Assembly: GCF_016863035.1 (NCBI RefSeq)
Contig: NZ_BOOC01000023.1
Location: forward strand, 62,001-126,000
Reading direction: 5' to 3'
From: Microbispora corallina
GTDB taxonomy: Bacteria; Actinomycetota; Actinomycetes; Streptosporangiales; Streptosporangiaceae
Length of the DNA: 64,000 bases
Below the pieces are notes generated by a model. The model was not told where the DNA came from, searched no databases, and saw only the letters and a program-made list of their open reading frames with translations. Of the stretch, positions 5,055-64,000 are shown piece after piece (position 1 is the stretch's first letter; each line of letters starts with the position of its first letter). A program made the position numbers and the translations under genes.

Positions 5055-5915
5055 TCAGCCGGCGGCGAGGCGGGCGACGACGGCGAGGGTCCTCCGGGCG
5101 CTCGCGGCGTCGTGGACCCGGAACACGCGGGCGCCCTGGAGGGCCGACACGGCCAGCGTGGCCAGCGTGCCCGCGTGCCGTTCCCCGACCGGGAGCCCGC
5201 CGAGCGCCTCGCCCACGAAGTCTTTGTTGGACACCGCCACCAGGACCGGCCATCCGGTGGCGGTCATCTCGCCGAGCCGGCGGCTCACCTCCAGCGAGTG
5301 CCAGGTGTTCTTGCCGAAGTCGTGCGCGGGGTCGATGAGGACGGCGTCCCTGCGCACGCCCGCCGCGACGGCCCGCTCGGCGAGATCGGTGGTGTAGGCG
5401 ACCACGTCGGCGACCACGTCGTCGTACGCGATGCGATGCGGCCGGGTGCGCGGCTCGACGCGGCCGGCGTGGGCGCAGACCAGCCCGATGCCGTGGGCCG
5501 CCGCGACCTCGGCCAGCCCGGGGTCGACCCCGCCCCACGTGTCGTTGAGGAGGTCGGCGCCCGCCTCGGCCACGACCTTCGCCACTTCTGAGCGCCAGGT
5601 GTCCACACTGATGACCACGTCGGGGTGGCGGTCGCGCACGGCGGCGACGACCTCGGCGACCCGGCGGATCTCCTCGTCCGGGTCGACCTCGGCGCCGGGG
5701 CCGGCCTTCACACCGCCGATGTCCACGATGTCGGCGCCCTCGTCGATCAGCCGGGAGGCGGCGTCCACGGCCGCCCTGAAGGCGAACGTCGAGCCCCTGT
5801 CGTAGAACGAGTCGGGGGTGCGGTTGACCACGGCCATGACCGCGAAGTCGCCGGGCCCGAAGGCGCGGCCGCGCAGGCGGAGGACGGACGGCTGGTCGGA
5901 CGTCGGACTAGGCAT
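5055..5915 (-). CDS. folP2: dihydropteroate synthase homologue, FolP2 type
   Basis: 286 residues with a dihydropteroate synthase TIM barrel: strand-1 motif VNRTPDSFYDRG, NDTWGG, DPAHDFGKN and the C-terminal VFRVHD. Key loops depart from active FolP: the GGESTRPG catalytic loop reads GGVKAGPG and the SRK anion site reads SNKD. These are the hallmarks of the actinobacterial FolP2 paralogue (mycobacterial FolP2 is reported not to make dihydropteroate). The gene is therefore probably not the folate enzyme of this organism; a true folP1 is expected elsewhere. Its actual reaction is not known. It stands alone, convergent with the PLP lyase. Confidence 0.8.
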   Translation of the reverse strand: MPSPTSDQPSVLRLRGRAFGPGDFAVMAVVNRTPDSFYDRGSTFAFRAAVDAASRLIDEGADIVDIGGVKAGPGAEVDPDEEIRRVAEVVAAVRDRHPDVVISVDTWRSEVAKVVAEAGADLLNDTWGGVDPGLAEVAAAHGIGLVCAHAGRVEPRTRPHRIAYDDVVADVVAYTTDLAERAVAAGVRRDAVLIDPAHDFGKNTWHSLEVSRRLGEMTATGWPVLVAVSNKDFVGEALGGLPVGERHAGTLATLAVSALQGARVFRVHDAASARRTLAVVARLAAG

Positions 5916-6003
5916 CGGCGCCAGCCTACTCGCCGGCGCCGACGCCCCTTGCCTGCCGCCGTGGACATGCGTTTGGAACGCTCCAATGAAATTGCAAAGA
6001 AAA

Positions 6004-6873
6004 TCACGCCGCGGATCCGCCTTCGGCGAGGGCGAGGAAGTCCTGCGCCATCGCGGGGAGCCTGCGCCGGGCGTGGACCACGGCGATGATCTTCCTGAGC
6101 GAGGGGTCGAGCGAGCGGACCACCAGGCCGGCGCGGGCCGCCTGGTCGGCCATGCCCCGATACCAGAGCAGGGACGCCCGCCCCTCGCGCACCGCCCGCA
6201 GCCAGCCGCGGCGCTCGTCCGACTCCACCGCGGGGATCGGGCGGACGCCGTACGTCACGAAGATGTGGTCGAACTCCCTGCGGCGGGGGCTGCCGGGGGC
6301 GGGCAGGACCAGGCGCATGCCGTCCAGCCGCGCCATCGGCACGGGATCGGGCAGGTCGGTGCCGGGAGGGGAGATGAGCACGATCTCCTGGCGTTCCAGC
6401 GGGTGGCTGACCAGGTCGGTCGGGACCGGAAGGTCGGTGAGGCCGAGGTCGGCCCGCTGCTCGCGGACCGCGCTGACCACCGCCTCCCGGCCGTCGCACC
6501 GCACGATGTGCACCCGGATGCCCGGGTGCTCCGCCGCGTACGCGGGCAGCAGGCGCCCGGCCAGACCGGGCTCCAGGCTCGGGGTCGAGGCGATGCGCAG
6601 TTCGGCGCCGGGCGTGCTGCCCTGCGTCGCCAGCGCCTCGATCTCCGCGACGGCGTCGAGCGCCTCCCGGGCGAGCTTGACGACGCGGCGGCCCTGCGCG
6701 GTCACGACGACCCCTCGCCCCGAACGCGCGAACAGCGTCATGCCGAGCTCGCGTTCCAAATCGCGAATCGCGCGGGACAGGGCAGGTTGCGCGATATAGA
6801 GCGATCTGGCCGCGTCGGTCATGGTGCGGTGCTCCGCGGTGGCGACCACGTAACGGAGCTGCTGCAGATTCAT
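6004..6873 (-). CDS. LysR-family transcriptional regulator
   Basis: 289 residues. The N-terminal winged helix-turn-helix (MNLQQLRYVVATAEHRTMTDAARSL, then QPALSRAIRDLERELG) and the periplasmic-binding-like effector domain (~90-289) are complete. It is divergent from the zinc metallopeptidase gene across 151 bp, so autoregulation with control of the peptidase is the usual expectation for the family. The gap contains ATTCCGGAA (6906-6914) and TTACGGAAT (6938-6946), two similar dyad-like boxes that could be its binding sites. The effector is unknown. Confidence 0.9.
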   Translation of the reverse strand: MNLQQLRYVVATAEHRTMTDAARSLYIAQPALSRAIRDLERELGMTLFARSGRGVVVTAQGRRVVKLAREALDAVAEIEALATQGSTPGAELRIASTPSLEPGLAGRLLPAYAAEHPGIRVHIVRCDGREAVVSAVREQRADLGLTDLPVPTDLVSHPLERQEIVLISPPGTDLPDPVPMARLDGMRLVLPAPGSPRRREFDHIFVTYGVRPIPAVESDERRGWLRAVREGRASLLWYRGMADQAARAGLVVRSLDPSLRKIIAVVHARRRLPAMAQDFLALAEGGSAA

Positions 6874-7024
6874 GCGAAAAACGCTAGGGCAGACGAGCCC
6901 GGCGATTCCGGAACATCGCAGAGATCACCTCGGATGATTACGGAATGTACCTGACATCTGCTACATCCGTGACCCCTGGGAAATCAGTATTCTTTTGCCC
7001 CAAATCGACGAAGGGGGCGATGTC

Positions 7025-8767
7025 TTGGCGCCGCAGTACCCTCCGCCGCCACCACGGGGCCGTCCTCCGTATTCGTCCGGGCCGAATTCCCCTGAACCAT
7101 TCGGACAGGGTCCGGACAGGGACAATTCGGATGACCAGGAATCCCTTTCCGGGAGTCCTCCCTGGCCGGGCACCCTGCCCCCGGACGCCCACTGGCCCCG
7201 TTCCCAGGATCTCGGCCACACCCCCGGCGTCCCGGCGCCGCCGCCCCCTCCCGGGTGGCCGCAGTACCCCGACCCCGGCCCGCAGCAGCAGGGTTCGTAC
7301 CAACCGGGCGAGACGTACCAACCCGCCGGGCCCCAGCATCCGGGCGGGCCGTACCGGCCGGGCCAGTACCAGCAGGGCGGGCCGTACCAGCCACGTGAGG
7401 CGTACCAGCCGGCCGGGCCCCAGCAGCCGGGCCAGTACCAGCCAGGCCCGCAGCAGCAGGGCGGGCCGTACCAGCAGGGCGGGGAGCGGCAGGGGCCGGG
7501 CGGATACCCGCGGCAGCCGGACCCCCAGGCGTTCCGGGACCCCGGGCCGCGGCCCCGCCCGTGGCCAGGCAGTCCGGACCTCGCGCAGCCCGGACCCCGC
7601 AACGTCCCGCCGCCCCCGAACACGCCACCGGCCCCGAACCTGCCGCCGCCGAGCGTCCCCCCGCCGCCATACGCACCGCCGTACCCGCCGCAGTCCCCGG
7701 GCCAGCCCTCGGGTCGGCCGGGGTACCCGCGGCCGCCCGTCCCGCCGGTACCGTACGGCCCGCCCGGGTACGCCCCCGGGTGGCGTCCGCCCAAGCGCAG
7801 ATCCGGGGCGGGGGCGCTGATCGGCGGCCTCGTCGGCGCGGTCGCGGTCGTCTTCGTCCTGCTCGCCGTCGCGGGCGCGCTGCTGCGCTCCGCCCACCGG
7901 TCCGAGCCCGTGTCGCCGGTCGCGATCCCGACGTACGGGGTCCCGACACTGCCGACCTACGAGCCGACGTCCGAGCCCACCTCGGGTACGACCCGGCGGC
8001 CGACGTCGCCGCCGACCGCGGCCCCCACGAAGCCCCCGACCCCGCGTGTGCTCAACCGGAGCCTGAAGAACAACACGGTCTACCGGGCCGGCGGGCTGCC
8101 CAGGACGAACTGCCCGGCGGGCGGCGCGAGCATCTACAACCACACCCAGTTCAAGGCGCTCATCCTGAAGACCGGCACCTGCATGGGCAAGGCGTGGGCT
8201 CCGGCGCTGCGCAAGGTCGGGATCGCCTGGACACCACCGAGCTACATGATCGCGCGGACCAGGGGACGGGGGGCCTGCGGCGACTACCCCGCACCCGGGA
8301 GCAACGTGCCGTACTACTGTCCCAGCAACCGCACGATCTACGCCTCCACCAGCGCCATGACCCGGGAGTACGGCTCGCTGGGCTCGTGGAACGGGATCAT
8401 CATCAGCATGATGGCCCACGAGTACGGCCATCACATCCAGAACCTGTCCGGCATCTCGGACTCCTGGTGGGAGCGGACGCTCGACGCCCACTCCCAGAGC
8501 GAGCGGATGGGTCTCAGCCGCCGGCACGAACTCCAGGCGACCTGCTTCGGCGGGATGTTCATGCGCTCGGTCGCGGCCAGCTACCCGATCACCACGGCCC
8601 AGCGGAACACGCTCCTGTGGGCGTACACCCATCTGGGCGACCCGCCGGGCGGCCCGCGCGACCACGGGACGACGCGGAGCAACGCCGCCTGGTTCCGGCA
8701 GGGGTACACGCGCCCCCTCGCGTACCAGTGCAACACCTGGGCCGTCGGCGCGGCCTCGGTGTCGTAA
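7025..8767 (+). CDS. membrane-anchored neutral zinc metallopeptidase with Pro/Gln/Tyr-rich N-terminus
   Basis: About 580 residues. The TTG at 7025 is preferred because AAGGGGG lies 7 bp before it; an in-frame TTG at 6995 lacks a ribosome site. The first ~250 residues are a low-complexity Pro/Gln/Gly/Tyr tail with repeated GGPYQ, QYQPGPQQQ and YQPAGPQ units and no signal peptide. One membrane segment (~260-285, GALIGGLVGAVAVVFVLLAVAGALL, split here for brevity) follows, then a Thr/Pro-rich stalk and a catalytic domain with HEYGH in MMAHEYGHHIQN, the zinc site of the putative neutral zinc metallopeptidase family (PF04228). Four cysteines in the catalytic part suggest it is outside the cell. Substrate unknown. 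Confidence 0.85.
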   Translation: MAPQYPPPPPRGRPPYSSGPNSPEPFGQGPDRDNSDDQESLSGSPPWPGTLPPDAHWPRSQDLGHTPGVPAPPPPPGWPQYPDPGPQQQGSYQPGETYQPAGPQHPGGPYRPGQYQQGGPYQPREAYQPAGPQQPGQYQPGPQQQGGPYQQGGERQGPGGYPRQPDPQAFRDPGPRPRPWPGSPDLAQPGPRNVPPPPNTPPAPNLPPPSVPPPPYAPPYPPQSPGQPSGRPGYPRPPVPPVPYGPPGYAPGWRPPKRRSGAGALIGGLVGAVAVVFVLLAVAGALLRSAHRSEPVSPVAIPTYGVPTLPTYEPTSEPTSGTTRRPTSPPTAAPTKPPTPRVLNRSLKNNTVYRAGGLPRTNCPAGGASIYNHTQFKALILKTGTCMGKAWAPALRKVGIAWTPPSYMIARTRGRGACGDYPAPGSNVPYYCPSNRTIYASTSAMTREYGSLGSWNGIIISMMAHEYGHHIQNLSGISDSWWERTLDAHSQSERMGLSRRHELQATCFGGMFMRSVAASYPITTAQRNTLLWAYTHLGDPPGGPRDHGTTRSNAAWFRQGYTRPLAYQCNTWAVGAASVS

Positions 8768-54636: not shown

Positions 54637-55526
54637 CCACGCTCTCCGCGCCCGCAGACACCAGAAGGCGCCGCGCGAAGCCCTCGGGCGGGGTGACCAA
54701 CCTCTGGACGGCGACGCCGCTGACCAAGATCGTGATCGCCGTCACGCTCATCGTGTCGGCGTTCCCGCTCTACTGGATGCTCGTCATCGCCTCCCGCACC
54801 AACCGCGAGGCCACCGACATCCCGCCGCCGTTCCTGCCGGGCGGCAACCTCGGGGCGAACATCCAGCGGGTGCTGTCCAACCCCGACGCGCACTACATGG
54901 CCGGCCTGACCAACTCGGTGCTCATCGCGTGCACGGTCACGCTCTCCGTCGTGCTGATCTCGACCTTCGCCGGGTTCGCGTTCGCGCGGCTGCGCTTCCG
55001 TGGCGGCCGGGTGCTCCTCCTGCTGGTCCTGGTCACCATGATGGTCCCGCTCCAGCAGATGGGCATCGTGCCGCTGTACCGCCTGATGGTCAGCCTGGAG
55101 TGGGTCGGCACGCTCAAGGCCGTCATCCTGCCGTACCTGCTGAACGGCTTCGGCGTCTTCCTCATGACGCAGTACACCGAGCAGGCCGTGCCGAACGAGC
55201 TCGTCGAGGCCGCGCGGGTCGACGGCGCCTCCACCCTGCGCATCTGGTGGAACGTCATCCTCCCGGCCGTCCGGCCGGGCATGGCGGTGCTGGGCATCAA
55301 CACGTTCATGCTGACCTGGAACGACTTCCTGTGGCCGCTGATCGTGCTGACTCCGGACAACCCGACCGTCCAGGTCGCCATCAACTCTCTGAACGCCAAG
55401 TACGGCACGGACTACGTGCTGATCTTCAGCGGTACGGCGATGTCGATTCTCCCGCTCATCGTCGTTTTCGTCGTGTTCGGCCGACAGATCATCGGCGGAC
55501 TCATGGAAGGTGCAGTCAAAGCGTGA
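54633..55526 (+). CDS. cebG: cellobiose ABC permease
   Basis: 297 residues from GTG 54633, GTGA overlap with cebF. Six membrane segments with EAA loop NELVEAARVDGASTLRIWW (~187-205). Pairs with CebF. No ATPase gene follows; the next gene is a beta-glucosidase. Confidence 0.93.
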   Translation: MTTLSAPADTRRRRAKPSGGVTNLWTATPLTKIVIAVTLIVSAFPLYWMLVIASRTNREATDIPPPFLPGGNLGANIQRVLSNPDAHYMAGLTNSVLIACTVTLSVVLISTFAGFAFARLRFRGGRVLLLLVLVTMMVPLQQMGIVPLYRLMVSLEWVGTLKAVILPYLLNGFGVFLMTQYTEQAVPNELVEAARVDGASTLRIWWNVILPAVRPGMAVLGINTFMLTWNDFLWPLIVLTPDNPTVQVAINSLNAKYGTDYVLIFSGTAMSILPLIVVFVVFGRQIIGGLMEGAVKA

Positions 55527-56959
55527 CAACGCACGGCACACGACCCGAGACAGAGATCCCGAGCCTGATGTTCCCCACGGGGTTCGTCTGGGGGGCCGCC
55601 ACCTCCGCCTACCAGATCGAGGGCTCGATCACGGCGGACGGTCGGGGCACCTCCATCTGGGACTCCTTCTGCAGTCAGGCCGGCCGGATCGTCGAGGCGC
55701 ACAACGCGGAGATCGCGATCGACCACTACAACCGGTACCGGGACGACGTGCGGCTGATGGCCGACCTCGGCCTGTCCGCCTACCGGTTCTCGGTCTCCTG
55801 GCCGCGGATCCAGCCGGACGGCTCGGGGTCGTACAACGCGAAGGGCCTCGACTTCTACAAGAGGCTCGTCGACGAGCTGCTCAGCTACGGCATCGACCCC
55901 TGGCTGACGCTGTACCACTGGGACCTGCCGCAGTCTCTGGAGGACGCGGGCGGGTGGCCCGCACGCGACACGTCGAAGCGCTTCGCCGACTTCGCCGCGA
56001 CCGTTCACGCCGAGCTGGCCGACCGGGTCAGGAACTGGAGCACGGTCAACGAGCCGTGGTGCGCGGCGTTCCTCGGGTACGCGTCGGGTGAGCACGCCCC
56101 CGGGCGGCGCGAGCCGGAGGCGGCCCTGCGGGCGGCCCACCACCTGAACCTCGCGCACGGCCTCGCCGTCCAGGCGATGCGGGCGCAGAGCGCGGACTCG
56201 CAGATCGGCGGGTGCGTGAACCTCTACGCGATCTCCCCCGCCACCGGCAGCGAGGCCGACAGGGACGCGGCCCGGCGGATCGACGGCCTGCAGAACCGGT
56301 TCTTCCTCGACGCCCTGCTCAAGGGCGCCTACCCGGAGGACGTGCTGGAGGACCTGGGCCACATCTCGGACCTCGCGTTCATCCAGGACGGCGACCTGGC
56401 CACGATCGCCTCGCCGATCGACATGCTGCTCGTCAACTACTACAGCCGCTTCACGGTGTCCGGCGCGCCGGGGGGAGCGGCGTCGGCGGCGGCGGCGCCG
56501 ACCGACTCGGGCTCGCCCTGGGTCGGCAGCGAGCACGTCGGCTTCGTCAACGGCGGCCGCCCGGTCACCGCGATGGGCTGGGAGATCGACGACGCCGGCC
56601 TGTTCGAGGTGCTGACGCGGCTGGTCGACGAGTACCCCCGGATCCCGCTCTACATCTCCGAGAACGGCGCGGCCTTCGACGACGCGCTCGGGGATGACGG
56701 CACGATCCACGACCCCCAGCGCCGGGACTACATCGAGGCGCACCTGCGCATCTGCCACGCGGCCATCGAGGCGGGCGTCCCGCTTCAGGGGTACTTCGCC
56801 TGGTCCCTGATGGACAACTTCGAATGGGCCTGGGGGTACGGCAAGCGGTTCGGCCTGGTCTACGTCGACTACGAGAGCCAGGTACGGACGCTGAAGTCGA
56901 GCGCTCTATGGTACGCCGACACCATCAGACACGGCGGGCTGCTGGGTCGGGCACAATAA
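55523..56959 (+). CDS. bglC: GH1 beta-glucosidase
   Basis: 478 residues from GTG 55523, GTGA overlap with cebG. Family 1 motifs: FPTGFVWGAATSAYQIEG at the start, acid/base Glu in STVNEPWCAAF, nucleophile Glu in LYISENGAAF and the final LMDNFEWAWGYGKRFGLVYVD (split: MDNFEWAWGYGKRFG). No signal peptide; it splits imported cellobiose to glucose, which the glucokinase at 17351 can feed into the Entner-Doudoroff route. Confidence 0.96.
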   Translation: MTTHGTRPETEIPSLMFPTGFVWGAATSAYQIEGSITADGRGTSIWDSFCSQAGRIVEAHNAEIAIDHYNRYRDDVRLMADLGLSAYRFSVSWPRIQPDGSGSYNAKGLDFYKRLVDELLSYGIDPWLTLYHWDLPQSLEDAGGWPARDTSKRFADFAATVHAELADRVRNWSTVNEPWCAAFLGYASGEHAPGRREPEAALRAAHHLNLAHGLAVQAMRAQSADSQIGGCVNLYAISPATGSEADRDAARRIDGLQNRFFLDALLKGAYPEDVLEDLGHISDLAFIQDGDLATIASPIDMLLVNYYSRFTVSGAPGGAASAAAAPTDSGSPWVGSEHVGFVNGGRPVTAMGWEIDDAGLFEVLTRLVDEYPRIPLYISENGAAFDDALGDDGTIHDPQRRDYIEAHLRICHAAIEAGVPLQGYFAWSLMDNFEWAWGYGKRFGLVYVDYESQVRTLKSSALWYADTIRHGGLLGRAQ

Positions 56960-56987
56960 GCGCAGACGCGATAAGGGGGCAGTATAG

Positions 56988-58007
56988 ATGAACGGGGACC
57001 GCCGCTCCGGGGGACGACCGACCTTGGAGGCGGTCGCCGCCCGAGCCGGCGTCGGCCGCGGCACCGTCTCACGCGTGATCAACGGGTCGCCGAAGGTCAG
57101 CGACCGGGCCCGCGACGCGGTGCTGCTGGCCATCCAGGAACTGGGCTACGTGCCCAACCGGGCGGCTCGGACCCTCGTGACGAACCGGACCGACACCATC
57201 GCCCTGGTGGTCTCGGAGTCCGAGCAGCGCGTGTTCGACGAGCCGTACTTCGCGGGGCTGATCCGCGGCATCGGCTCCGCGCTGTCCGAGACCGGCCTCC
57301 AGCTCATCCTGACGATGGCGCAGAACCGGCTCGAGCACGAGCGCCTGGAGGAGTACCTGACCGGGCAGCACGTGGACGGGGTCCTGCTGACCTCGGTCCA
57401 CGGCGCCGATCCCCTGCCCGGGCAGCTGGAGGAGATGGGCGTGCCGACCGTCCTCGGTGGCCGGCCCGTCGGGCTCAACCCGTACAGCTACGTCGACATG
57501 GACAACCGGGCCGGCGCCCGGCAGGCGGTCAAGTACCTGGTCTCCAAGGGCAGGACGCAGATCGCCACCATCGCCGGTCCGCAGGACATGGGCGTGGGTG
57601 TCGACCGTCTGGCGGGGTACCGCGACGCGCTGCTCGCCACCGGCATGACCGAGCTGGTCGCCTACGGGGACTTCTCCGAGGAGAGCGGCTCGGCGGCCAT
57701 GCGCGAGCTGCTGCAGCGCCACCCCGGCCTGGACGCGGTGTTCACGGCCTCCGACCCGATGGCGGTCGGGGCGCTGCGCGTGCTCAAGGAGAGGGGCAAG
57801 GTCGTCCCCGACGACGTGGCCATCATCGGGTTCGAGGACTCGAAGGTGGCCCTGCACACCGACCCGCCGCTCACCAGCGTTCACCAGCCCACCGAGGCCA
57901 TGGGCCGGCAGATGGTGCAGCTGCTGATCGCCCGCATCAACGGCGAGCCGCTGGAGCAGCCGGTCGTCATCCTCGACACGCACCTGGTGATCCGCGCCTC
58001 GGCCTGA
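56988..58007 (+). CDS. cebR: LacI-family cellobiose repressor
   Basis: 339 residues; GGGGG lies 10 bp before ATG 56988. Helix-turn-helix TLEAVAARAGVGRGTVSRVI followed by the hinge NGSPKVSDRARDAVL; the effector domain follows. It is the last gene of the ceb operon, and two perfect CebR boxes lie at the operon head. In Streptomyces CebR releases DNA on binding cellobiose or cello-oligosaccharides. A strong bidirectional terminator follows. Confidence 0.93.
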   Translation: MNGDRRSGGRPTLEAVAARAGVGRGTVSRVINGSPKVSDRARDAVLLAIQELGYVPNRAARTLVTNRTDTIALVVSESEQRVFDEPYFAGLIRGIGSALSETGLQLILTMAQNRLEHERLEEYLTGQHVDGVLLTSVHGADPLPGQLEEMGVPTVLGGRPVGLNPYSYVDMDNRAGARQAVKYLVSKGRTQIATIAGPQDMGVGVDRLAGYRDALLATGMTELVAYGDFSEESGSAAMRELLQRHPGLDAVFTASDPMAVGALRVLKERGKVVPDDVAIIGFEDSKVALHTDPPLTSVHQPTEAMGRQMVQLLIARINGEPLEQPVVILDTHLVIRASA

Positions 58008-58075: not shown

Positions 58076-59377
58076 TCAGGCGAGCGCCCGCTCCACCACG
58101 GTCCGCTCCAGGGCGGGGAGGAACGCGTCGAGGTCGGCGGGGGCCACGTACCGGGTGTCCGCGGTGACCATCACCCGGAGCCGGTCCGGCTCGCCCGTCA
58201 CGTGCACGCAGAAGCGGCAGTTGAGGTCGTCGAGCCCGTCCTCCGGCGCCTCCTCCGTCAGCGGCAGGGCCGCGCGGATCTCGCCGGCGTCCGGCGGCGG
58301 GCCGGCGGGCGTCACGCCCTCGGCGGGCCGCTGGTCGTTGAAGCAGCACAGCGGGTCGGCCCCGGCGAGCGTGCGGTTCAGCTCGGCCTGGTCGTAGTAG
58401 GCGTGGCGGTAGGCGCGCAGGGCCGCCGAGCGGGCCGCGTCCATCGGGTCGCCGTCGCCGGGCTCGTCGAGGACGAACAGGCCGAGCTGCGCGAGCGAGG
58501 TCACCAGGTCCCGGTCCTCGGCCCGGAACCGGTTGTTGACCAGCGGCGTCATCGCGGCGACCGGCCTGCCGGCGATCCGGCCCGCCCCGGCGCAGGCGGC
58601 GGCCAGCAGCACGGTCGAGGTGCTCACGCCGTACCGGCCGGCGAGCAGGCGGCTCGCCCGGTCGAGGGCCGGCGAGACGAGGACGGCCCGCCGGTAGCGC
58701 GGCGACCCGGCCTCCGCTCCCGTCCCCTCGCGAGGCCTGTCGAAGATCGGGCCGCCGAGCGCGTCGAGACGCTCCCGCCAGAACTCCAGGGCCCGGTCGC
58801 CGCGGGCCTTGTCGGCCGTGCCCTGCCGCGCCACCAGGTCCCGCAGCTGTCCCGGCGCACCGGACAGCGCGCCGCGCAGCAGCGCGAGCCGCAGGTCCCG
58901 CGCGACGACGTCGCCAGCGTACCCGTCGGCCGCGACATGGCAGAAGACCAGCACGACGTGCCGGACGGCGCCGTCGCGGACGGTCATGCCCGCGCGCAGC
59001 GGCCAGTCCGCGGCCGGGTCGAACCGGTCCGCGGCCAGCCGCTCGGCCAGTTCGGCCGGGGTCTCCACGGACTCGTCCGCCACCTCGACCGGTATGCCGC
59101 CGGTCCCGCCGATCACCTGGTTCGGCTCGCCGCCGCCGTCGGCCCGCACCCGCGTGCGCAGCGAGTCGTGCCGCTCGACCACCATGGCGACGGCCCGGGC
59201 CACCGTCTCGGGGGGCGGGGACCCCGCGCCCCTCGGCACCGGGACGACGCGGGTGAAGTTGAAGTAGTGGTCCCCGGCCGCCCCGACCAGGCGCATCGCG
59301 CCCCAGATCGACCGCTGCCCCCACGCGAGCGGCCCCGTCCACTCGGGGACGTCGGCGCGGAAGGGCACCGGGGTCAC
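58076..59377 (-). CDS. free-standing condensation-domain protein
   Basis: 433 residues from GTG 59377, GTGA overlap with the carrier protein gene. NRPS condensation fold: an LAWGQRSIWGAM opening (C1-like), VERHDSLRTRV, and the active-site motif reading FCHVAADGYAGD at 145-156, that is CHxxxDG instead of HHxxxDG; the catalytic second His147 and Asp151 are kept. C-terminal LVNNRFR and LCCFNDQRP match later motifs. It probably joins an acyl or aminoacyl group on the adjacent free carrier protein to an amine, or acts as an esterifying/ releasing domain. It is the last gene of the biosynthetic operon. Confidence 0.85.
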   Translation of the reverse strand: MTPVPFRADVPEWTGPLAWGQRSIWGAMRLVGAAGDHYFNFTRVVPVPRGAGSPPPETVARAVAMVVERHDSLRTRVRADGGGEPNQVIGGTGGIPVEVADESVETPAELAERLAADRFDPAADWPLRAGMTVRDGAVRHVVLVFCHVAADGYAGDVVARDLRLALLRGALSGAPGQLRDLVARQGTADKARGDRALEFWRERLDALGGPIFDRPREGTGAEAGSPRYRRAVLVSPALDRASRLLAGRYGVSTSTVLLAAACAGAGRIAGRPVAAMTPLVNNRFRAEDRDLVTSLAQLGLFVLDEPGDGDPMDAARSAALRAYRHAYYDQAELNRTLAGADPLCCFNDQRPAEGVTPAGPPPDAGEIRAALPLTEEAPEDGLDDLNCRFCVHVTGEPDRLRVMVTADTRYVAPADLDAFLPALERTVVERALA

Positions 59378-59631
59378 CGGTGGATCCGTTCGCCGACGTA
59401 GCGCGCCAGATCGTCCAGCCCCGCGAGGTGGTCGACGTACCCGGCGAGGTCGATCTCCACGCCGAACTCGTCCTCGATCGCGTCGATCAGCCGGAGCTGG
59501 GCCAGCGAGGTGACGCCGAGGGCGGCCAGCGAGCAGTCGGCCGCGGAGATCTCCGCCGCCGTGATCTCGCCGTCGCACGCCTCGGAGATCATGACCGCCA
59601 GCCGCGCGGAGAGATCGGCCTGTGTCGTCAT
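59374..59631 (-). CDS. free acyl/peptidyl carrier protein
   Basis: 85 residues from ATG 59631 with AGGAGG just upstream. Phosphopantetheine Ser42 in LGVTSLAQLRLIDAIEDEFG, acidic helices, typical carrier length. The start codon shares a base with the stop of the preceding 50-residue peptide (TGATG), so translation is coupled. Its acyl or aminoacyl load is likely the second substrate of the condensation protein encoded next. Confidence 0.92.
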   Translation of the reverse strand: MTTQADLSARLAVMISEACDGEITAAEISAADCSLAALGVTSLAQLRLIDAIEDEFGVEIDLAGYVDHLAGLDDLARYVGERIHR

Positions 59632-59783: not shown

Positions 59784-59959
59784 CCGCCCTGCCTGAGGCT
59801 GCGGGGGCGCATGTCCGTCCACACCTCCTCGATGTGGCCAAGGCACTGCTCCCGGGTGCCGTCGAACCCCTCCGGACGCCAGCCGTCGGGCACGGGCCGG
59901 TCGGCGGGCCAGAGGGAGTACTGGTCCTCGTCGTTCACCACGACGCGGTAGGTGCTCAT
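59780..59959 (-). CDS. MbtH-like NRPS helper
   Basis: 59 residues, ATGA overlap with the synthetase stop. MbtH motifs are complete: VVVNDEDQYSLWPAD and CLGHIEEVWTDMRPRSLR with the conserved Trp and Pro pocket. MbtH proteins bind and activate NRPS adenylation domains, so it should serve the A domain of the gene just upstream. It is slightly short at the N-terminus compared with the ~70-residue norm. Confidence 0.95.
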   Translation of the reverse strand: MSTYRVVVNDEDQYSLWPADRPVPDGWRPEGFDGTREQCLGHIEEVWTDMRPRSLRQGG

Positions 59960-62900
59960 GCTGTCTCCTTCTCGGGGGCGGGGACGGCGGCCGCCGCGAC
60001 GGGGGTGCGGGCGCGGAGCGTCTCCACCCCCACGAGGTCGTCGGGCAGCGCGTCGGGCATCTCGTCGTCGAAGCGGGCGAGCACCGGGACGCGCATCGCG
60101 ACCAGCGCGGTCGCGGCCATCCCGAGGGCGAGGCACACGTACAGGAAGCCGATCCCGCGGCCGGGGCCGGTGCCGATGACCAGGCCGACCGTGCCCGCCA
60201 GCGGACCGCCGCGCGCGAGCAGCGGCTCCAGCACCGCGGCGCCGTACGGCGCGACCAGGCCGAAGCCGATCGGCAGCGTCGACCAGGCGATCAGCGTGTT
60301 GAGCGCGATCACCCGGCCGTGGAACCGCTGGGGCACCTTGACCTGGATGATCGTCGCGTAGACGCCGTTCAGCAACGTCAGCCCCAGCGACATGCCGAAC
60401 GAGCCGAACGCGACCAGCGCGAGGTTCGCCCGCAGGCCGGTGACGAGGCAGAACAGCGCCAGGACCAGCGTGCTCACCAGCACGCCGCGCAGACGGCGGC
60501 GCCGCGGGCCGCCCCACACCGTCATCGCGAGCCCGCCGAGGAAGACGCCGGCGCCGCCCGCGAAGGCGACCCGCCCGACGTCCGCCAGCGTCGCCTGGGC
60601 CAGGACGAGCGGGGACAGCATGAGGAAAAGCGGCGACAGGAAGACGTTCAGCACCGCGAAGTAGACGAGCATGCCGCGGAACGGCCGCCGGCCCCAGACG
60701 AGCCGGAACCCGCCCTTGATCTCGTCGAGGACCGTCTCCCTGCGCCGCCAGGCCATCGCCGCGGGGAAGCGGACCAGCAGCACGCTCAGGAACGCGACGG
60801 TGTAGCTGGCCACGTCGAAGGCGAGGATGCCCTGCAGCCCGATCGCCGCCATCAGCCCGACCGCGACGAGCGGCACCGCGAGCTGGGCGACGCCGAACGC
60901 CATCTGCACGACGCCGTTCGCGTGGCCGAGGTAGCGCTTGGGGACGAGCTGCGGGACGGCCGAGCCGTACGCGAGCCGCTGGAACGTGAGCGCGACCGAC
61001 AGACAGGCGAGCAGCGGGTAGATGTGCCAGACCTGGAGGTTTCCGGTCCACAACAGCACGCCGAGCGCGAGCTGGGTGAGCCCGGCCGCGCCGTCGCCCG
61101 CGAGCATCACGCGCCGCCGGTCGTACCGGTCGACGATCGCCCCGGCCAGCGGGGACACCAGCATGCCGGGGACGAGGCCGATCACGGCGAACAGCGCGAA
61201 GTTCGCCAGCGAGCCGGTGGTGAGGTAGATCCAGACGGGCACGGCGAACTCGGTGAGCGCCGACCCGGTGATGGAGACGAGCTGGCCGGCCGCGACCAGG
61301 AGGAAGCGCCGCATGCTCGGCCGCGGCCCGCCCAGTCCCGCGCCGTCCAGGCCGCCCGGGACGGCGTGGTCCCTTTCGCCCGGCGCGGTGCGATCTCGCC
61401 CGGCCGACGTGGCGGGGTCCAGGCTGCCGAGCGCGTCGCGGGCACGTTCGCCCGATGCGGTGTGGTCCCCGTCGCCCGGCTCGGGGCGGTCCGGGCCCGG
61501 CGGTGTGTCCGGGGCTGATCCGGACCCGCTCTCCGGCACCCTGTCAGGCCCCGCCTGCGGCACCGCCTCCGGCCCGGCCGCGCCGCTCTCGGACGCGCCG
61601 TCCGGCTCCGGCCGGGAGACCGCCTGCGACGCCGGCCCCTCGGCGAGACCGAGGCGGGAGACGCCCTGGAGCCACCAGGTCGCGTCCTCGCGCCGTTCGA
61701 AACGCCCCGTGTCCCCCGACCGGATCGCGGGGTGGAGTTCGGTGACGATCCGGGCCAGCTCCTCCGCCCGATATTTCATGAAGAAGTGGCCAGCCTCGTC
61801 GAGCACGGCGGCGGCGGCCACGTCGGTGATGCGGTGCCACTCGCGGTAGCGCTCCTGGTAGAACTCCGTCGCCGGGTCGCGCTCGCCGGCGACCGCGATG
61901 ACCGGGGCATTCAGCCGCTCGGCCCGCTCCTCGTACAGGCGCGTGAAGTACCGCTCGGCCTGCTTGGTGCCCTCCCGCCGGTTGCGGACGATCAGCTTCA
62001 GCTGCTCGGGGTCGAACTCGTCGGCGTCGAGCCCGGCGGCGGTGAGCGCGTTGACCATCGCCTGGTCGCCGCGGAGCCGGTCCATCCAGTCGGCCAGCCG
62101 GGCCATCCCTCCCCGGGGACGGGCGAAGGGGAAGATGCCGCCGAGGTACACGGCGTCCACCTCACGCCCGGCCGCCTCCAGCCGGCGGGCGATCTCGGCG
62201 GAGATCATCACGCCCAGCCCGCAGTGGCCGTACAGGACGAGCGGGCCGCGGACGTTCTCCAGGATCTCCCCGACGCAGCGCTCGGCCAGCTCCTCCAGCG
62301 GGATGGCCTCCTCCCCCAGCTCGTGACCGGGGACGGCGATCGAGTACAGCGCCCAGTCGTCCGGCAGCACGTCGGCCAGCGGCTTGTAGATGAGGGCGTT
62401 GCCCCCGCCGTACGGCGCGCAGACGACGGTGCCACTCGTGACGGCGCGGGCGGGGGTGAGGCGGTGCAGGAGGAAGGCGCCGCCCACGGGCTCCCCGGCC
62501 TCGAGGAGCTGGGCCAGCTCGCGGACGGTCCGGTGGCGGAACAGGTCCATGACCGTCACCGGCCGATCGGGCACCAGCTTCCGCAGCCGGGCGACGACGC
62601 GCATGGCGAGCAGGGAGTGCCCGCCGGAGTCGAAGAAGTCGTCGAGCGCCCCGACGCGCTCCACGTCCAGCACCTCGGCCCAGATCTCGGCGACCGCCCG
62701 TTCCAGGTCCGTCCCCGGCTCGGCGTAGTCCTCGGCGAAGGGGGCGGCGGCGCCGGGGTCGGGGAGCGCCGCCCGGTCGACCTTGCCGTGGGACTTCAGC
62801 GGCAGCCGGTCGAGCCGGACGAACCGGGCGGGGATCATGTACTCGGGCAGCCGTTCCCGCAGCAGGGAGCGGAGCTCCGCGTCGGCGGGCACGTCCCCGG

Positions 62901-64000
62901 TCAGGTACGCGACCAGCCGGTCTCCCCGCAGGACGGCCGCGGCCTGGGCGACCCCGGGCAGGTCGGCCAGGACGGCCTCGACCTCCCCGAGCTCCACCCG
63001 GTAGCCCCGGATCTTCACCTGCAGGTCCCGGCGGCCGAGGAACTGCAGCTCGCCGGACGGCAGCCATCGGGCGAGGTCGCCCGTGCGGTACATGCGGCCG
63101 CCCGGCTCGCCGTACGGGTCGGGGAGGAACCGGTCGGCCGTCAGCCCGGGGCGGCCGAGGTAGCCGCGGGCCAGCCGGTCCCCGCCCAGGTGGATCTCGC
63201 CGGGGACGCCGGGGGGCACCGGCCGCAGCGCCTCGTCCAGGACGTACACCCGGGCGCCGGGGAGCGGCCGGCCGATCGGCAGCGTCGCCCCGCGGACGTC
63301 CTCGTCCGGCGCGACGGGGTCGACGGCGAACGTGGTGACCCCCACGGTCGCCTCGGTCGGGCCGTAGTGGTTGGCCACCGCGCAGCCGCCGATGGCCGCG
63401 AGGTCGCGCGCCCACTCCCAGCCGGAGGCCTCGCCGCCGAGGAGCAGCAGACGGCGCGGCAGCAGGGCGCGCGGGTCCGACTCGGCGAGCAGCGCCGCGA
63501 GGTGCGACGGCGTGATCTTGAGGACGTCGACGTCGCGGAGCAGCGACGCGAGGTCGGGCGCGGAGGTCCGCGAGGGGACGAGGCGCAGCCGGCCGCCGGT
63601 CATCAGCGACAGGTAGAAGATCGTGACGCCGAAGTCGAACGCGAGCGACTGCAGCAGCGCGAAAGTGCCGCCGTCCGGCACCGCGAACCGCTCCCGGACG
63701 CCCGTCAGGTACGTCACGACCTCGCGGTGCTGGACGGCCACGCCCTTCGGCCGGCCGGTCGTGCCGGAGGTGTAGATGACGTAGGCGAGGTTCTCCGGCC
63801 GCACGCCGGGATCGCCGTACGTCCTGCCGCCCTCCTCTCCGGGCCCGACGACCGTCAGGTCCCGGGTGAACGGCAGTCCGGCGGCCAGGTCCGGCGTGGT
63901 CACCACCACGCGCGCGCCCGCGTCGGCCACCATGTACGCCAGCCGCTCCTCGGGCTGCTCGGGGTCGAGCGGCAGGTAGGCGGCGCCCGCCCGCAGCACG
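59956..64000 (-). CDS. NRPS module fused to a transporter: A-PCP-TE-MFS (5' end beyond window)
   Basis: At least 1348 residues, cut at its N-terminus by the window edge. Adenylation (64000-~62730): YVIYTSGTTGRPKGV, HYGPTEAT, MYRTGDLARW, LQVKIRGYRVE, LKSHGKVD. PCP (~62720-62500): FFDSGGHSLLAMRV. Thioesterase (~62460-61740): CAPYGGG, GHCGLG with Cys (codon 62221-62223) instead of nucleophilic Ser, and DEAGHFFMKY. A ~140-residue Pro/Gly/Glu-rich linker (~61735-61320). MFS transporter (~61310-59956), about 12 membrane segments. Hand-read specificity residues D-F-T-K-L-G-H-V-G-K resemble the Asp code. It activates, tethers, releases and presumably exports one product; MbtH, carrier and condensation partners follow. 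Confidence 0.9.
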   Translation of the reverse strand, partial: VLRAGAAYLPLDPEQPEERLAYMVADAGARVVVTTPDLAAGLPFTRDLTVVGPGEEGGRTYGDPGVRPENLAYVIYTSGTTGRPKGVAVQHREVVTYLTGVRERFAVPDGGTFALLQSLAFDFGVTIFYLSLMTGGRLRLVPSRTSAPDLASLLRDVDVLKITPSHLAALLAESDPRALLPRRLLLLGGEASGWEWARDLAAIGGCAVANHYGPTEATVGVTTFAVDPVAPDEDVRGATLPIGRPLPGARVYVLDEALRPVPPGVPGEIHLGGDRLARGYLGRPGLTADRFLPDPYGEPGGRMYRTGDLARWLPSGELQFLGRRDLQVKIRGYRVELGEVEAVLADLPGVAQAAAVLRGDRLVAYLTGDVPADAELRSLLRERLPEYMIPARFVRLDRLPLKSHGKVDRAALPDPGAAAPFAEDYAEPGTDLERAVAEIWAEVLDVERVGALDDFFDSGGHSLLAMRVVARLRKLVPDRPVTVMDLFRHRTVRELAQLLEAGEPVGGAFLLHRLTPARAVTSGTVVCAPYGGGNALIYKPLADVLPDDWALYSIAVPGHELGEEAIPLEELAERCVGEILENVRGPLVLYGHCGLGVMISAEIARRLEAAGREVDAVYLGGIFPFARPRGGMARLADWMDRLRGDQAMVNALTAAGLDADEFDPEQLKLIVRNRREGTKQAERYFTRLYEERAERLNAPVIAVAGERDPATEFYQERYREWHRITDVAAAAVLDEAGHFFMKYRAEELARIVTELHPAIRSGDTGRFERREDATWWLQGVSRLGLAEGPASQAVSRPEPDGASESGAAGPEAVPQAGPDRVPESGSGSAPDTPPGPDRPEPGDGDHTASGERARDALGSLDPATSAGRDRTAPGERDHAVPGGLDGAGLGGPRPSMRRFLLVAAGQLVSITGSALTEFAVPVWIYLTTGSLANFALFAVIGLVPGMLVSPLAGAIVDRYDRRRVMLAGDGAAGLTQLALGVLLWTGNLQVWHIYPLLACLSVALTFQRLAYGSAVPQLVPKRYLGHANGVVQMAFGVAQLAVPLVAVGLMAAIGLQGILAFDVASYTVAFLSVLLVRFPAAMAWRRRETVLDEIKGGFRLVWGRRPFRGMLVYFAVLNVFLSPLFLMLSPLVLAQATLADVGRVAFAGGAGVFLGGLAMTVWGGPRRRRLRGVLVSTLVLALFCLVTGLRANLALVAFGSFGMSLGLTLLNGVYATIIQVKVPQRFHGRVIALNTLIAWSTLPIGFGLVAPYGAAVLEPLLARGGPLAGTVGLVIGTGPGRGIGFLYVCLALGMAATALVAMRVPVLARFDDEMPDALPDDLVGVETLRARTPVAAAAVPAPEKETA

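Follow-up and report, generated by a model that had tools for sequence, protein, structure and literature searches.

Gene and domain organization of the locus

The stretch of DNA analyzed here, referred to as the window, comprises 64,000 nucleotides of the Microbispora corallina genome (G000:C23:62001-126000; the host assembly is 8.36 Mb in 121 contigs). Toward its end lies a nonribosomal peptide synthetase (NRPS) gene in which a thioesterase (TE) domain is joined in frame to a transporter of the major facilitator superfamily (MFS). A single open frame on the minus strand runs from past the window end to a stop at 59956, and with the adjoining stretch, L011, the whole gene can be read: it encodes 1,938 amino acids (aa; L011:3957-9773, minus strand) and is preceded, with a 4-base overlap, by a two-module NRPS gene of 2,072 aa. 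The upstream part of the fused gene, to which the original prediction (an earlier reading of the window's letters) had pointed, is thereby located.

Pfam divides the 2,072-aa protein into C-A-PCP-C-A-PCP and the 1,938-aa protein into C-A-PCP-TE-MFS (C, condensation; A, adenylation; PCP, peptidyl carrier domain). The matches on the latter are Condensation at residues 61-498, AMP-binding at 530-872, PP-binding at 1026-1090, Thioesterase at 1115-1343 and MFS_1 at 1494-1831, the last covering profile positions 2-340 of 347. The NRPS line is trimodular, and the fused gene is its third, termination module. The original prediction had described a one-module A-PCP-TE system; that description falls, given the additional C domain and the three modules of the line. 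The interval it had assigned, 61310-63999, does contain the TE and the Cys codon, but begins inside the A domain and ends at about the start of the MFS. On the same strand, an MbtH-like gene, a carrier protein and a divergent C protein follow the two NRPS genes (Table 1).

Table 1. Features of the fused NRPS gene and the genes downstream of it, in window coordinates
Feature	Position	Strand	Basis or remark
Terminal-module adenylation domain, visible part	62782..64000	-	Starts at about 64185, beyond the window; Pfam AMP-binding and AMP-binding_C
Peptidyl carrier (PCP) domain	62503..62697	-	Pfam PP-binding, residues 1026-1090
Thioesterase domain, ObiF/SulM-like, Cys nucleophile	61732..62418	-	Pfam PF00975, AlphaFold, Foldseek
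Cys nucleophile codon TGC, elbow YGHCGLG	62221..62223	-	Sequence and alignment
Catalytic Asp codon, position II, matching ObiF Asp1254	61876..61878	-	Alignment
Catalytic His codon, matching ObiF His1284	61786..61788	-	Alignment
TE-MFS linker, low-complexity, about 146 aa	61294..61731	-	Pfam domain limits
Fused MFS transporter domain (presumed exporter), C-terminal tail and stop	59956..61293	-	Pfam MFS_1 and MFS_3 above cut-off
MbtH-like protein, 59 aa	59780..59959	-	Pfam PF03621; start overlaps NRPS stop
Stand-alone acyl/peptidyl carrier protein, 85 aa	59374..59631	-	Pfam PF00550
Stand-alone divergent condensation-like protein, CHVAADG replacing HHxxxDG	58076..59410	-	Pfam PF00668, 49 bits

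Active site and ancestry of the thioesterase

The Cys codon within the GHCGLG elbow is where the original prediction had placed it. In alignment with the TE of ObiF1, from the obafluorin NRPS (PDB 6n8e), Cys66 of the window TE falls on the nucleophile Cys1146, so that misalignment of the Cys is ruled out, and the triad partners match Asp1254 (position II) and His1284. ObiF1 Gly1173, which marks the site of Asp in ordinary NRPS TEs (position I), is also Gly in the window TE. Relatives keep this arrangement: among 116 fused TEs, Cys is present in 115, and the position-II Asp, the His and a Gly or Ala at the Gly1173 site in all 116. (The 116 fused TEs used for triad, elbow and tree, and the 116 fused genes used below for linkers and codes, are overlapping but not identical sets.) On these alignments, Cys66 is assigned as the TE nucleophile, acting with the position-II Asp and the His. 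The elbow has one residue more than the GxCxG pattern and so departs from it (ObiF1 has GHCAG). The two systems also differ in that ObiF1 ends in beta-OH-p-NO2-homoPhe and that the window TE is fused to an MFS, no fused transporter being reported for ObiF1 in the parts of its description at hand.

The triad layout with Asp at position II has been tied to small-ring closure in ObiF and SulM (PMC6668435, PMC11298585), and the Cys-to-Ser variant of ObiF1 yields hydrolyzed acid only (PMC6668435). To place the window TE among solved structures, an AlphaFold model (16 alignment rows, pLDDT 84) was compared with PDB chains by Foldseek. ObiF1 ranked first (E 4.6e-12; 31% identity in the fold alignment) and chains of SulM, from the sulfazecin NRPS (PDB 8w2c), ranked 2-5 (E 1.5e-9), with type II TEs lower. 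By sequence profile, the best PDB match was again ObiF1 (193 bits), with BorB (165), RifR (137), surfactin TEII (100) and SulM (89) below it. Judged by the modeled fold, the TE is nearest within the PDB to ObiF1, which makes a beta-lactone, and SulM, which makes a beta-lactam; these are the two enzymes to which it had originally been likened. SulM shares the Cys nucleophile and the position-II Asp. The type II TEs RifR and BorB, next in sequence similarity, share the position-II Asp but are free-standing and use a Ser nucleophile.

A maximum-likelihood tree was built from 126 TEs and five PDB outgroups, leaving out TE rows shorter than 200 aa or below 100 bits, exact duplicates, and L004, L005, L012, L059, L063, L125 and L165. 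All 116 fused TEs (115 Cys, 1 Ser) fall in one clade with support of 100/98, and type II TEs fall outside it. Beside it stand one unfused Cys TE and a weakly supported group (80/57) holding ObiF1, SulM and unfused WGHC/WGHS TEs. TE pairs drop to 32% identity (2,000 sampled pairs). A single old TE-MFS fusion, retained since, would fit this tree best.

Distribution of the fusion and nature of the transporter

At E 1e-20, 123 of the 297 genomes sampled from the family hold relatives of the TE, with as many as seven in a single genome; for some of these genomes the fusion itself was confirmed by direct reading. An order-level search (121 of 297 genomes) covers many of the same genomes again. In a wider phylum sample, five of 396 genomes match the TE profile at E 1e-30: the window's own genome, and four in which the TE is unfused. 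Fused clade members were found in Streptosporangiaceae and, beyond that family, in Streptomycetaceae (Streptomyces, Kitasatospora, Streptacidiphilus and Embleya).

Named genomes were also scanned, and the best 80 of 497 confirmed stretches are considered here. YGHC is present in all 80 of these loci, although one of the three peptide patterns of the scan contains YGHC and thus biases the loci toward Cys. Of the 80, 79 have an in-frame tail, 457-747 aa long and containing seven or more hydrophobic stretches, and the remaining one ends at a contig end. Genome searches made without motif selection recovered 57 distinct MFS-fused TEs (L125 included), each with an in-frame tail of at least 430 aa containing hydrophobic stretches; 56 have Cys and one has Ser. 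The unfused TEs of the same searches comprise four with Cys and six with Ser, counts that come from related sequences and are not an independence test. The conserved Cys is not due to chance, because 56 of the 57 fused TEs collected independently of the motif carry it.

These data bear directly on whether the TE and the MFS are in truth separate genes, joined by an assembly or reading artifact. Beyond the in-frame tails, the MFS alignment is continuous in 19 chosen relatives, at 57-78% identity to the window MFS, and when 13 genomes were searched with the MFS, all listed matches more than 50% identical to it sat in frames of at least 1,780 aa. Nothing was found in favor of an artifact. Two of these MFS matches, both in one Microbispora-genus genome, do hold one in-frame stop each (G216:C51:12828-14162 and G216:C21:14438-15787), reflecting either decay or sequencing error. 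The artifact, to which we give a negligible chance, is rejected, as relatives carry the same in-frame fusion, and the claim that a TE and a complete MFS share one frame is confirmed. The sequence comparisons indicate that the fusion is neither unique nor artifactual; it is common to many soil actinobacteria, and its TE is most like enzymes whose products are reactive four-membered rings.

The linkers of 116 fused genes span 16-303 aa (median 48.5). An AlphaFold model of the MFS is all-helical (mean pLDDT 85.6), and its listed Foldseek matches are MFS-type membrane transporters, importers and exporters mixed; a PDB sequence search with the domain gave no match at E 0.01. The MFS fold spans the whole domain, and the fused MFS is secure as anatomy. 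We infer that it exports the NRPS product, and it is plausible that the fusion couples release to export. An unfused MFS, 39% identical, was seen among the NRPS frames of another cluster.

Among the titles listed for an NRPS-MFS or TE-MFS fusion in the open PMC literature we found no bacterial case (subscription papers and MIBiG lay outside the search), only fungal papers, PMC9495618 and PMC11057048 among them. A Verticillium polyketide synthase listed as KS-AT-ACP-ACP-TE-MFS (PMC9495618) also joins a TE to an MFS in a megasynthase; it is a fungal gene model, and the likeness rests on the domain order listed in the portion of that source at hand. Two further fused Cys-TE-MFS genes may be mentioned. 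L182 (G000:C6:19976-22108) lies in the same genome as the window and has the elbow YGHCVG and the code DLPKVAEVG. L191, on the Streptomyces clavuligerus megaplasmid NZ_CP027859.1, has the code DFTKVGHVG; in three plasmid records with relatives, that of L191 included, no gene is annotated in the relevant stretch.

Predicted peptide and mode of release

The A-domain codes, in order, are DILQLGMIW, DTEDVGTVI and DFTKLGHVG, read by alignment to a GrsA segment. Reported codes include DILQLGMIWK for Gly, DVWHLSLVDK and DVWHMSLVDK for Ser, and DLTKVGHVGK for both Asp and Asn, and Arg codes follow a Glu239/Asp278 pattern (PMC12283262). DFTKLGHVG is one letter off the Asp/Asn code DLTKVGHVG, leaving aside V/L at position 299, and is not of the Ser type. 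The codes predict Gly, then an Arg/Lys-type and then an Asp/Asn-type residue, with beta-hydroxylated forms among the candidates. A search of the open PMC literature for six A-domain code strings gave no match.

The terminal codes of the 116 fused genes are DFTKxGH(V/I)G in 85, Ser-type in 17, other Lys278 codes in eight, DMGEIGAVD in two, DAMSLGAVI in one, and unreadable in three. The DMGEIGAVD pair we take to be Orn-like. On these assignments, 112 of 113 readable codes specify residues with a nucleophilic side chain (Asp/Asn 93, Ser 17, Orn-like 2). The only other code, DAMSLGAVI, pairs with the only fused TE that has a Ser nucleophile, as was noticed post hoc; this TE (L185/L046, in G092; elbow YGHSGPG) provides a natural Cys-to-Ser contrast. 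The labels Orn-like, Thr, Dab-like and Arg/Lys-type used here are tentative and draw in part on PMC12283262.

We propose that the peptide, acyl-Gly-(Arg/Lys-type)-(Asp/Asn-type), would be transferred from the PCP onto Cys66 through transthioesterification, a step shown for ObiF1, and that the position-II triad would leave space beside the Cys. The chain would then be attacked from within, most likely by the side chain of its terminal residue, closing a small ring and freeing the product. The ring would vary with that residue: Ser would give a beta-lactone, Asn or Asp a five-membered aminosuccinimide or anhydride, and an Orn-like residue a six-membered lactam, TE-mediated closure of six-membered rings from terminal hydroxy-ornithine being described (PMC12283262). 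The product, probably an acylating agent, would exit through the tethered MFS, with limited exposure of the cytoplasm. The product, the ring size and the transport direction of the window system are all predictions.

We favor ring closure by the terminal side chain, whatever the exact size of the small ring (the beta-lactone included), at a probability of roughly 40%, because the TE has the hardware of strained-ring enzymes, its Cys is near-invariant, and nearly all terminal residues carry a nucleophilic side chain. Several observations weigh against it. SulM stands below several type II TEs by sequence profile (seventh), the grouping of ObiF1 and SulM beside the fused clade is weak (80/57) and involves long branches, and the extra elbow residue occurs in 106 of 116 fused TEs, the window TE included (the usual spacing is found in 10, nine of them in a deep branch of the tree). 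The code-based substrate assignment is weak, and the Orn and Lys/Arg labels are weaker still. Unfused relatives with DIWQST(A/T)DD codes have two Cys and three Ser TEs, and because they use both, the Cys is not bound to one terminal residue. We know of no NRPS release in which a terminal Asp or Asn forms the ring. As for export, the fold matches of the MFS include importers and uniporter-like proteins besides drug exporters, and the match to TIGR00900 (H+ antiporter) is under its cut-off.

A stricter form of small-ring closure, a special case of the above, would have the TE turn a terminal beta-hydroxy-Asp or -Asn into a beta-lactone like that of obafluorin. It is consistent with ObiF1 and SulM as the nearest structures, with the Ser-ending subclade (17 of 113 codes; the Nonomuraea glycinis locus L163 is one member), for which no hydroxylase or other tailoring would be needed, and with the unfused relative L193, whose Cys TE follows an A domain with the code DFWNVGMVH, presumably Thr. 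Asp/Asn-type A domains can also accept beta-hydroxy-Asp/Asn (PMC12283262). However, no hydroxylase or sulfotransferase was matched by Pfam among the frames between the flanking sugar genes (five cluster genes and one further frame), and neither turned up in the 25 most frequent of the 123 families present across 95 neighbor proteins of the related loci, the other 98 families lying outside that view. We consider this form unlikely for the window, because no recognized cluster gene would supply beta-hydroxy-Asp or -Asn. The strained-ring link of the original prediction is thus partly supported, as regards the Cys nucleophile, the nearest structures and the position-II triad, but not as regards a Dap or, so far, a beta-hydroxy substrate. 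A SulM-type beta-lactam is rejected: the Gln-Cys-Asn (QCN) motif is absent from the alignment (the window TE has His-Cys-Gly), the terminal A domain is Asp/Asn-like rather than of the Dap type, whose codes resemble Dab codes (80% identity; PMC12283262), and neither a sulfotransferase (Pfam, the same five cluster genes and one further frame) nor N-sulfonation was seen in the window system.

A Cys nucleophile alone does not imply a four-membered ring, because the TE of BulbE (bulbiferamide) uses Cys to form a 15-atom macrolactam, an indolylamide ring (PMC11536411). Ring closure is shown for that enzyme and predicted for the window TE. A larger ring, in which the attacking group would be the Arg/Lys-type side chain, the N terminus or an acyl-cap hydroxyl, would also suit the many clusters in which a basic-type code is paired with the terminal code. 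It is nevertheless, in our view, also an unlikely outcome, as BulbE and AB3403 have a position-I Asp, unlike the window TE (PMC11536411, PMC11298585), and as L067, L077 and L080, with two Gly-type codes before the last, have no basic code in the stretch read. We think it quite improbable, finally, that the TE performs plain release, by hydrolysis or by handing the chain to an outside nucleophile, for instance the stand-alone carrier/C pair, with the Cys a historical accident. Type II TEs, RifR among them, are close in sequence and do have position-II triads (PMC11298585), and one fused member has Ser; but the Cys is kept in 115 of 116 fused TEs despite their divergence, and the Ser mutant of ObiF1 gives only acid.

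If small-ring closure is correct, the locus would belong to a recurrent pathway family with synthesis, ring closure and export in one protein, and would offer a test case of whether transporter tethering shields a producer from its reactive product. The combination of position-II Asp, GHC elbow and fused MFS would serve as a sequence handle for finding small-ring peptides, and even with an ordinary ring the conserved NRPS-MFS fusion allows direct study of the coupling of release to export. A broader proposal, which we regard as rather doubtful, is that the fused proteins form one ancient actinobacterial clade of cyclase-exporters, in which the last A domain would set the ring size and the reactive product would be passed within the polypeptide to the tethered exporter; this would represent a large set of unexplored routes to covalent enzyme inhibitors.

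Three further loci may be mentioned. L193, on a plasmid of Caballeronia sp. NK8 (elbow YGHCVG), is a candidate Thr beta-lactone line, judging by its code. L198 (NZ_CP108358.1, 2305-10631) is an unfused NRPS with the code DIWQSTADD and a Cys TE (WGHCSG), beside a PLP enzyme, an argininosuccinate-lyase-like gene, an ATP-grasp gene and a kinase. L203 (NZ_CP070059.1, a Staphylococcus epidermidis plasmid, 5710-8016) is a short carrier-TE protein with the elbow YGHCAG, and its neighbors are a serine hydroxymethyltransferase-like gene, an NRPS and a phosphopantetheinyl transferase. This layout recalls the logic of obafluorin, ObiH being, we assume, of the serine hydroxymethyltransferase-like class.

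Neighborhoods were compared across 101 loci, 97 with distinct TEs, through 150 representative neighbor proteins, of which 95 were scanned in one set and 10 in another, plus 10 NRPS-type proteins. Neighbor genes that recur among the 97 distinct loci encode 2-oxoacid dehydrogenase E1 alpha (33), E2 (23) and E1 beta (21), and some loci also have carrier proteins (17), AMP ligases or extra C domains; these neighbors point to an acyl cap. The first C domain of the line, together with the carrier, C and AMP-ligase genes of the window cluster and its relatives, likewise suggests an N-acyl cap. Stand-alone C proteins similar to that of the window occur in three further clusters of the family (L070, L079 and L117). 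Rotihibin was considered as a relative on account of the carrier protein, AMP ligase and Asn modules in its cluster, and rejected, since the genes tabulated for it include a type II-like TE and an ABC exporter (PMC8552735).

The cluster is flanked by family-1 glycosidases, a LacI-type regulator and an aldose epimerase (Pfam; window 54929-58007 and L011 16750-19793). A frame of 210 aa separates the first NRPS gene from the next glycosidase and matched no Pfam family. Glycosidase/LacI-type neighbors are kept in L068 and L078, and the sugar-gene flank is partly so in L068, L078 and L083. Sugar control of the cluster, through these flanking genes, is possible.

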